This document shows positions 57,114-60,635 of a DNA stretch of 64,000 nucleotides, in pieces. The stretch's first letter is position 1. Each line of letters opens with the position of its first letter. Both the position numbers and the translations under genes were made by a program. The notes beneath the pieces were generated by a model that worked only from the letters and a program-made list of their open reading frames with translations, had not been told where the DNA came from and did not search any database. The DNA comes from Alkalihalobacillus sp. CinArs1 (GTDB lineage: Bacteria; Bacillota; Bacilli; Bacillales; Guptibacillaceae): positions 806,001-870,000 of the forward strand of contig NZ_CANDOB010000002.1 of the NCBI RefSeq assembly GCF_947387515.1, read 5' to 3'.

Positions 57114-57260
57114 ATGAATTGTTATACGTGTTCTGGAAATGGTGAACTTTCTTGTCCTCATTGTCACGGTAAGGAAAGAACGGCTGAACAATGCAAGCAT
57201 TGTCGCGGAGAAGGCTGTGTTGGATGCCACCGCTGCAGTGGCAACGGACGTTTGGATTAA
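57114..57260 (+). CDS. DnaJ-type CxxCxGxG zinc-finger peptide, 48 aa
   Basis: A tiny gene with AGGAGG nine bases before ATG, the first of the aceA operon. The product has nine Cys in DnaJ-like elements: CYTCSGNG (3-10), CPHC (14-17), CKHCRGEG (27-34) and CHRCSGNG (38-45). This would form a two-zinc fold like the cysteine-rich domain of DnaJ, without any J domain or substrate part. Such stand-alone zinc fingers can serve as adaptors or small chaperones. Its position suggests a role with the malate-synthase-like protein or AceA, which is inference. I know no name for it. Confidence 0.8.
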   Translation: MNCYTCSGNGELSCPHCHGKERTAEQCKHCRGEGCVGCHRCSGNGRLD

Positions 57261-57277
57261 TTGAAAGGGGGCTACAA

Positions 57278-58192
57278 ATGGGAACGGTGAATGTAAAAAC
57301 TGTATCACTAACACGGTCAGATGAAGAAGCAAAGTTCCTATCGAGGCTCATTCATACATTCGATGTAGAACGCTCCCAGATACATGAGCCAAGAAACAGC
57401 GGATTGAACACAAACGTAAATCGTATCGACAGCAACTGGCACGTTAAGCCGGTGAGAAAAGATCTGCAAGATCAAAGAGTCGGTTTGATCGTAAGACATC
57501 ATTCAGAAATGAAGAGAAGCCTTGAATCGAGGGCGAAGGTGATTACGGTCGACTTTTTAGACTCATCAGATCGTCATTCCTCATTTAGCTATATTCAAAG
57601 CGCTATCGAAGAAGCAACGAGAAGCAGGAGCCAAATTCCAGCGATAATGTGCGATGTAAAAGCAAACGAAAAGGAATCGGTCTTAATCGTTGGAAAGTAC
57701 TTGTTTCAAAATGCTGAAGCCTTATTACATAGGCGGTCAGCACCATATTTTTCACTAAGAGGGATTGCTTCTTGTGAGATGGCGAGGGTATGGAGAAAGC
57801 TTATCTCCTTCGCTGAAGCTGAACTATCACTTATAAGAGGTACTGTCAAAGTGGCGGTTGAAATTGACGCTGTGAATTATACCGACTGCGAACACATTCT
57901 TTATGAGTTTAAAGACCATTGTGCTGGTCTTAGGGTGGTGACTGATGATCGACACGTTGATAGCGAGATCGTACAAAACACCATTGCGATCGGCCATGCG
58001 CGAGGTACTCATGTCATCGCACTTAAAGAGCGAACGTTCACCGAGAAAGCAGCCGAATCAGAAGCGATAACTGGATTTGACGGAATTAGTATTAGCAATC
58101 ATACAGCCATCGAAAGTATGGTAATCATTTGGAATTATATTATGCCAGATGCAAATCAGTTATGGAAGAAACGAAAAGGAATCACTTGTTAA
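57278..58192 (+). CDS. Malate-synthase-A-like protein, catalytically incomplete
   Basis: A 304-residue protein that follows the TIM-barrel of malate synthase A: FLSRLIHTFDVERSQI, DSNWHVKPVRKDLQDQRVGL, KVITVDFLDSS, LFQNAEALLHRRSAPYFSL, RGTVKVAVEIDAVN and ILYEFKDHCAGLRVV. E. coli AceB (533 residues) uses Arg166 in CRVRG and Asp447 in the C-terminal domain. Here CDVK replaces CRVR, the GRWDY metal-site motif is absent, and the protein ends after the GFDGI motif (267-271), so the whole C-terminal domain is missing. The frame is intact, with a good AAAGGGGG site, so it is not a plain pseudogene. It could be a regulatory or scaffolding pseudoenzyme for AceA. Confidence 0.82.
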   Translation: MGTVNVKTVSLTRSDEEAKFLSRLIHTFDVERSQIHEPRNSGLNTNVNRIDSNWHVKPVRKDLQDQRVGLIVRHHSEMKRSLESRAKVITVDFLDSSDRHSSFSYIQSAIEEATRSRSQIPAIMCDVKANEKESVLIVGKYLFQNAEALLHRRSAPYFSLRGIASCEMARVWRKLISFAEAELSLIRGTVKVAVEIDAVNYTDCEHILYEFKDHCAGLRVVTDDRHVDSEIVQNTIAIGHARGTHVIALKERTFTEKAAESEAITGFDGISISNHTAIESMVIIWNYIMPDANQLWKKRKGITC

Positions 58193-59491: not shown

Positions 59492-59520
59492 AAAAACCGG
59501 CTGATTTCAGCCGGTTTTTT
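59492..59520. terminator. Bidirectional terminator after aceA
   Basis: A 12-bp stem AAAAACCGGCTG/CAGCCGGTTTTT; T tract on the aceA side and A tract on the other, serving the convergent selenoprotein gene. Confidence 0.88.
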
Positions 59521-59522
59521 CG

Positions 59523-60260
59523 TTACTTGAACTTTATGTTAGACTCCACGATCGTTCCGCCTTCAGTTACCTCTTTCAAGCAATCGAGTGCTTTATGAAG
59601 AACCTGTTGTTGTTGTTCTTTATTACCAGGTTGTCCTACAGCACTACCAAAAGGAAATCTGCTATATAGCGTGCGGGGGATTTTCACATAGTCTGCAATT
59701 TCTTTTGACATCGAGAGTGTAACGGTTGGAATTCCGTGTTCTTCCAATATGCGAGCGACCAGACCGGCCGACTGTTGGCAAATTGGTCAGGAAGGAACCA
59801 ACAATGCGAAATCAACGTTTTGCTGAAGTAGTTTTTGTGCTACTTCAGGTGCAGTAACCTGTTTTAGTGGATGAGGAGTTGGGATATAGCCCATAAAACT
59901 ATAGTGGGTATCTGCGAGCCCCCCAATTCTTCCTTCCTCCACCAGTTCATTCATTCTTTCGAACGGGAAGAGGACGTTAGGGTCCTGCCTCACGTTCGTT
60001 TGGTCATAATGTTCATGAGAGAAAGATAGATCTTTATTCGGTGTTGTTGCAGGTATTTCTCGGTAAGAAGGATCACCTAATCCGAAATGATCGGTAAAAG
60101 GTGTTTGTCCTTTTACATAAACCCCACCTGTTGTGATGATAGCACCTTTTGCATTACTTAGATCTTTTGTAAAAGGTGTGAAAGGTGTAGTTTCGTTCTT
60201 TTCGTATCGAAACGATGGAACCCAGTTTTGCCTTACTGCTTGTTCAACTTTTTCGATCAA
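59523..60260 (-). CDS. GrdB-family reductase component, probable selenoprotein
   Basis: The minus strand encodes 245 residues if the single in-frame TGA (59787-59789) is read as selenocysteine, U158. The motif becomes FALLVPS-U-PICQQSAGLVARILEEHGIPTV, with U158-x-x-C161 in the place of the redox UxxC/CxxC of the glycine/sarcosine/betaine reductase B (GrdB, PF07355) family. Both flanks match that family: TTGGVYVKGQTPF and GLGDPSYREIP before, and the IPRTLYSRFPFGSAVGQPG motif after. TTG 60260 is preceded by AAAGGAGGAG; an ATG at 60347 has no site. Alternatives are a nonsense mutation or a Cys-to-stop change. The real electron acceptor is unknown; Bacillus members lack Grd A/C partners. Confidence 0.82.
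59757..59789 (-). promoter_or_regulatory. Candidate bacterial SECIS region after the TGA
   Basis: On the minus strand UGA is followed by a possible hairpin: outer GACCA/UGGUC, inner GCC/GGC, with loop AACAGUC that contains the GU often seen in bacterial SECIS apical loops. The apical stem is short and begins seven bases after UGA, so the match is modest and needs folding software. Confidence 0.4.
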
Positions 60261-60405
60261 CTTTTTCTCCTCCTTTCGTATGTAATATCCCCATTCCGTT
60301 TTATCATTTATGCCAACAGATGAAAAGATATATGCTCTAACACTCATAATTAGAAGGACAAGTTAATATGATGGGTAATAAAAACGTTGGGAGGGACAGG
60401 CAGGA

Positions 60406-60435
60406 ATGAAAAAGACGTTTGCCTATGTGACATGA
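60406..60435 (+). CDS. Nine-codon upstream ORF overlapping the next start
   Basis: ATG at 60406 follows GGGAGGG/GGCAGGA and reads MKKTFAYVT before TGA (60433-60435), which overlaps the ATG (60432) of the next gene as ATGA. The downstream gene has no ribosome site of its own, so this mini-ORF probably couples its translation. The frame is short, so it may simply serve as a loading site. Confidence 0.4.
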   Translation: MKKTFAYVT

Positions 60436-60635
60436 TCTTTCGTTTTTTCATTTTTCTAGTTGGCTTTGGTCTCTCTGTCGCAGGTGGCGTTACTTTAATA
60501 CTCGAACTAAACTTTATTATCATCGGTCACACTGTTTTAGAATATTTACAATATGTATCACGACGACCGGAGATGTTTTTATTTGCATCTGGAATCATTG
60601 TGATTTGGGTAAGTGTATATTGGCCTAAGTTTTAA
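60432..60635 (+). CDS. Small two-helix membrane protein, 67 aa
   Basis: A 67-residue protein with two hydrophobic helices (MIFRFFIFLVGFGLSVAGGVTLILEL and FLFASGIIVIWVSVYW) joined by a loop with HTVLEYLQYVSRRPE. I do not recognise the family. ATG 60432 overlaps a nine-codon upstream ORF, and the in-frame TTG at 60387 lies in the apparent ribosome-binding region instead. Membrane peptides of this size are common near stress and sporulation genes in bacilli, but no role can be assigned. Confidence 0.6.
   Translation: MIFRFFIFLVGFGLSVAGGVTLILELNFIIIGHTVLEYLQYVSRRPEMFLFASGIIVIWVSVYWPKF

Follow-up and report, generated by a model that had tools for sequence, protein, structure and literature searches.

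The closest described systems to the gene studied in this work are PrdB, the 26-kDa selenoprotein subunit of D-proline reductase (TIGR04483), and the selenoprotein B components GrdB, GrdF and GrdH (PF07355), all of which have a UxxC motif, with a UGA-encoded selenocysteine in the case of PrdB. Selenoproteins of the PrdB type with this motif are abundant in marine samples, 42 genes being reported from the Sargasso Sea (PMC1088965) and 235 from GOS (PMC2398784). However, the available passages of both reports name no Bacillales and do not set apart clades devoid of PrdA, and these marine sets are likened to our gene by their description. For the Bacillales, the count of 2006 was of 3 selenoproteins in 3 families, according to the accessible part of that survey (PMC1794560), and PrdB is given as UxxC only in the review passages at hand. 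Selenoproteins of the PrdB type are therefore already known, and what was not found described in the accessible text of the open-access literature, including PMC5029168 and PMC9312934, is the branch lacking PrdA to which our gene belongs, its members in Bacillales or a PrdB-like protein with UxxU.

The window, which is the whole stretch of 64,000 nucleotides of Alkalihalobacillus sp. CinArs1 that was analysed, contains on its minus strand a PrdB-like gene at positions 59523..60260, with a TTG start and a TAA stop, that would give a selenoprotein of 245 residues with UGA read as selenocysteine. The start codon, which is ATG in 7 of the 11 named relatives, is preceded by the ribosome-binding site AAAGGAGGAG (60267..60276, minus), recognized by direct reading of the sequence. 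From 60260 to 59523 the minus frame has a single internal stop, the TGA of codon 158 (59787..59789), a putative selenocysteine codon. It occupies the first position of UxxC within S-U-P-I-C, and Cys161 (59778..59780, minus), which has a putative redox role, is the other residue of the U/C pair; this last codon is TGC or TGT in 58 of 60 aligned genes and TGA in the other 2. The mechanical list of open reading frames split the gene into 59787-60347 (186 aa) and 59523-59747 (74 aa). The PrdB model TIGR04483 matched the half before the TGA with 100.9 bits (profile positions 20-144), the half after it with 44.7 bits (151-229) and the read-through protein, nearly end to end, with 162 bits, both halves lying in register on successive parts of the profile. 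These data bore out what an earlier note, made from the sequence alone, had claimed, namely that one family protein is interrupted by nothing else than a TGA at the redox motif UPIC, with no further stop or frameshift, and that a gene caller would give two fragments. The same note had also stated that family similarity continues across the TGA, which held for the PrdB model but not for Pfam GRDB (PF07355), as the latter matched residues 16-155 (47 bits, over its gathering score of 22), ended just before the TGA and gave no match to the second half. As a consequence, it is the PrdB model and the relatives that show the family match to carry on past the TGA. AlphaFold predicted the read-through protein as one domain, with a pLDDT of 92.6 and a pTM of 0.92 (42-sequence alignment).

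Although PF07355 membership stood, the protein proved to be nearer to PrdB than to GrdB, the family proposed by the earlier note, since the Grd models gave only 52.7 (TIGR01917), 55.2 (TIGR01918), 59.3 (NF040794) and 54.7 bits (NF040795), all of them under their cut-offs. The score of 162 bits was also below the curated cut-off of 300 of TIGR04483, so the protein does not qualify as an equivalog of PrdB and no NCBIfam cut-off was reached by the read-through protein. The length agrees with that of PrdB (profile of 238 positions), whereas the profiles of GrdB, GrdF and GrdH have 431-435 positions and only their C-terminal half is homologous to the protein of the window. On the other hand, the motif differs from that of PrdB, UPICQQ being found instead of UGTCHRS. 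In a tree of 82 rows, in which several long branches make the deep joins unsure, the gene was placed within a clade of 17 members (support 96/90), all with TGA, while the annotated PrdB of Terrisporobacter and the Cys PrdB genes formed a separate clade of six (100/100). PrdA gave no match in this genome. Among the 397 genomes of the order it was above cut-off in 3, the very same ones that carry Cys PrdB. Genomes G197 and G212 gave weak PrdA matches below cut-off. GrdA gave no match in this genome either, and the control genomes were likewise silent. To judge from its sequence, the protein belongs to the PF07355/PrdB superfamily, nearer PrdB than GrdB, in a clade without PrdA. Searches of the PDB found nothing by sequence at E <= 0.1 and nothing by fold at E <= 0.001 (best 0.02), and hence solved structures give no function for the protein. 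Its superfamily and the absence of PrdA from its clade make a thiol/selenol-dependent reductase, acting on some class of substrate, the most likely function, and we give this putative role about an even chance.

The gene stands alone, convergent to the isocitrate lyase gene (aceA), and no operon partner was found among the neighbours in the window. Between both genes there is a terminator-like hairpin, ACCGGCTGA..TCAGCCGGT, flanked by runs of A and T (59492..59519, minus), which was identified by direct reading of the sequence and was also traced by a sub-threshold Rfam alignment. On the other side, a divergent ORF of 82 aa (60387-60635) adjoins the gene; it is kept in 8 of the 11 named relatives and had no Pfam match. 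A superoxide dismutase gene lies about 850 bp from the PrdB-like gene, with two plus-strand ORFs intervening. Beyond these elements, a short malate-synthase-like protein (57191-58192) showed only 30-45% identity to the proteins encoded at the corresponding place in 7 named relatives, while the aceA beside it was 90-93% identical.

Another clade of PrdB-like genes, with the motif PLCHRT, had a peroxiredoxin-like gene directly upstream and on the same strand at 18 of 22 loci (L069, L074, L075, L079, L081, L083-L087, L090, L091, L094, L095, L117, L119, L121 and L123, L075 and L119 being one gene). The three of these peroxiredoxin-like genes tested with Pfam matched AhpC-TSA (129-133 bits), and in all 13 that were reached by the examined stretch a TGA was present in W-T-P-V-U, presumably at the peroxidatic position of the enzyme. 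This neighbour is a lead for peroxide/thiol chemistry in the PLCHRT clade and gives no evidence on the clade of the window. It raises the alternative that the protein of the window is a peroxide- or thiol-linked partner, feeding electrons to a peroxiredoxin-type enzyme or resolving it, with which the superoxide dismutase neighbour would also agree, as this gene and a small ORF are kept nearby in 8 of the 11 named relatives (L026-L033, not L034-L036). However, the association with peroxiredoxin belongs to a different clade, and no peroxiredoxin was detected by Pfam among the neighbours in the window, inspection by eye of the ORFs listed for L035, L051 and L052 revealing none either, so that we consider this partnership unlikely. 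Apart from this, two genes of the order, L060 (G120:C1:352882-353559) and L065 (G367:C12:61945-62613), presented two in-frame TGAs in a motif U-P-I-U, both positions of which would be selenocysteine according to their sequence.

Much less probable is that the protein serves as PrdB within a functional D-proline reductase. TIGR04483 is certainly its best family, but its score against the curated cut-off, the lack of a PrdA match and the separate, fully supported clade of the annotated PrdB all argue against that function. D-proline reduction by this protein is likewise very improbable.

The genome (4.03 Mb, 11 contigs, with an estimated completeness of 99.76%) holds tRNA-Sec, selB, selD and selA at one locus (C2:1304125-1311778), as the earlier note had predicted on proposing a selenocysteine system elsewhere in the genome. 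The scores of selA (560 bits), selB (365 bits) and selD (413 bits) were each above the curated cut-off, and tRNA-Sec gave 55.8 bits against a gathering score of 47, its anticodon being TCA according to ARAGORN. The complete machinery for a UGA-encoded selenoprotein is therefore present. In addition, selD itself (L017:10964-12100, minus, C2) has an in-frame TGA in L-S-T-K-G-G-*-G-C-K, which we take to be the active-site loop position of SelD; with that of the PrdB-like gene, the genome has at least two in-frame UGA sites. Its FdhA match was without an in-frame stop. The idea that selenocysteine use is uncommon in this group had to be abandoned, as selA was above cut-off in 181 and selB in 179 of the 397 genomes of the order.

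Codon 158 was TGA in all the 11 named relatives (Pseudalkalibacillus, Alkalihalobacillus and Bacillus sp.), whose identity ranged from 64 to 93%, and the TGA was conserved across 54-93% identity. These relatives (L026-L036) come from a separate collection that overlaps the genomes of L038-L050, and the two sets were not summed. Comparison of the 87 codons after the UGA with those of the closest named relative revealed 32 silent and 4 amino-acid-changing differences, which indicates that selection acts on this part at the protein level. A protein search of the order (397 genomes) matched 68 places in 57 genomes. Sixty of these were aligned, G253 (in two pieces), the fragments G294 and G336 and the long frames, some 440 aa each, in G197, in G212 and at two places of G125 being omitted, and codon 158 was TGA in 57 and TGC in 3 of them; homologues with selenocysteine or cysteine at the UGA position do then exist. 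In the class sample of 398 genomes, 44 places were matched in 31 genomes and TGA was present at 42 of them, the exceptions being in G014 and G463. The relatives on plasmids of Paraclostridium and Haematobacter have Cys too. Genome G463 carries a stop-free PrdB-like form (G463:C22:16581-17240) together with two TGA forms.

The distribution of the TGA form followed that of selA, which was found in 51 of 51 genomes with this form versus 130 of the 346 others (Fisher 4.7e-20, uncorrected for kinship; the 51 include G197 and G212, with long frames only, and selA membership was assigned by eye). Likewise, selB was present in 50 of the 51; the one in which it was missing, G203, is assembled in about 480 contigs. 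Within the order, four genomes with a match lacked selA. Three of them (G014, G151 and G272) have only the Cys form, an association that is drawn from one genus, and in the fourth, G253, a frame change and stops interrupt the gene. Genome G336, which is of the same genus as the window and in which both selA and selB are present, retains no more than the first 33 codons, between orf82 and aceA, from which it follows that the gene is dispensable. At that locus (L098, G336:C1:824000-834000) the gene order is as in the window, with the selenoprotein gene cut to those 33 codons.

A GU-containing loop after the TGA, also announced in the earlier note, was found in the predicted apical stem-loop of a bSECIS element, CGGCC-GGUCU-GGUCG (59756..59770, minus), in which the stem 59770-59766/59760-59756 (CGGCC/GGUCG) encloses the loop GGUCU (59765-59761), starting 21 nt past the UGA. 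The bSECIS of Escherichia coli fdhF is similar in its loop, GGUC, located 18 nt past the UGA, but its stem sequence differs; the fdhF element carries a bulged U. The sequence CAGTCGGCCGGTCTGGTCGC downstream of the UGA was identical in the window and in 11 of the 11 named relatives, despite a DNA divergence of 14-33% between the genes. In an alignment of 19 rows, which is without L038-L041 and L043-L046, the stem paired in all 9 distinct sequences, with 5 of 5 pairs kept and 45 of 45 cells paired, and two compensatory changes from C-G to U-A occurred at separate pairs, in one sequence each (L049 and L052). A point against this hairpin is that 5 of 500 shuffles equalled its covariation score. 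Outside that alignment, L108 kept the stem, by eye, with the loop AGUUU. A test of synonymous sites (17 rows, without L050 and L052) showed that the four-fold sites of codons 164-168 (59757..59771, minus), which overlap the hairpin, are all invariant, their third-base identity being 1.0 against a mean of 0.54 for the 142 four-fold codons in the 17 sequences. Random draws equalled the conservation of codons 163-171 in 4 of 100,000 cases, and among all stretches of 15 codons in the gene the best conserved was 161-175.

Regarding its geometry, the hairpin, with its loop 21 nt from the UGA and 5 bp that covary, fits the rule given for bSECIS elements in the accessible part of its source, namely a loop of 3-9 nt with G in the first two positions, 16-37 nt past the UGA, and a stem of at least 4 bp (PMC13188914). 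The same part quotes an energy limit of -7.5 kcal/mol (PMC13188914), and the 15-nt apical hairpin alone is weaker (-5.5 kcal/mol; that of E. coli fdhF gave -2.0 by the same measure). Longer stretches after the UGA reached -11.5 to -16.2 kcal/mol, but by adopting another fold. The folding energy after the UGA was ordinary (z of -0.60, -0.38 and -1.20), and among 9,135 stretches taken from the window, 320 had a hairpin meeting the same loose rule. Because of this, the structural case comes from conservation and covariation. Rfam gave nothing beyond sub-threshold matches. Two other pairings were discarded, the rival stem CAGUC-GGCCG-GUCUG and the GACCAG..CUGGUC pairing favoured by RNAfold, as both had broken pairs without compensatory change. 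Regarding other clades, L058, L059, L069, L071 and their kin presented bSECIS-like hairpins in the first 48 nt past the UGA that differ among clades, with the loops GGUCG, GUG, AGUU and UGUAU and with differing spacings.

All these results, that is, the kept TGA, the sel genes, the association of TGA with selA and the conserved hairpin with compensatory changes, lead us to conclude that the UGA of codon 158 is almost certainly decoded as selenocysteine and is not a nonsense mutation, a deduction about the living cell that is made from sequences. Reading of the UGA as tryptophan, or plain read-through, would leave the frame equally open; nevertheless, in the three aligned genes from the order where TGA is absent the codon is TGC and not one for Trp, the TGA form follows selA, and the spacing of the covarying hairpin from the UGA is one that has been given for bSECIS elements, all of which make such a reading scarcely credible. 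The idea that the TGA broke a gene now in decay, for which only the dispensability seen in G253 and G336 speaks, can be practically dismissed, since the TGA is identical in the 11 named relatives and in the 17 members of the tree clade, purifying selection acts past it in a genome with a full sel set, and truly broken copies are of another kind, with a frame change, TAA, additional TGAs or the loss of most codons. Neither of the conditions that the earlier note had set in advance as favouring a nonsense mutation applies, as selB and tRNA-Sec are present in the genome and the close relatives keep TGA and not TGC or TGG.

With selenocysteine decoding as the preferred reading, SelB with Sec-tRNA(UCA) would bind the stem-loop located 21 nt past the UGA, with its loop GGUCU, and selenocysteine would be inserted at codon 158 to give the single-domain protein of 245 residues. 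In this protein U158-x-x-C161 would be a redox pair, whose two residues may form an Se-S bond, with recycling by cellular thiols or thioredoxin.

As no NCBIfam cut-off is reached, annotation based on models may split or truncate this gene, and the same mis-annotation may affect others, given the 57 TGA forms in 49 of the 397 genomes of the order. For the PrdB-like proteins of Bacilli as a whole we tentatively propose, at somewhat less than even chances, that they are PrdA-independent selenoenzymes that form several clades with clade-specific bSECIS elements, one of them beside a selenocysteine-containing peroxiredoxin and two members with a double-selenocysteine U-P-I-U, and that they serve thiol/peroxide chemistry and not amino-acid fermentation, their assignment to proline reductase having followed from nothing more than homology. 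In this organism, the selenocysteine system would serve a protein named for an amino-acid reductase whose partner PrdA gave no match in the genome, which turns the reaction that it carries out into a testable question.
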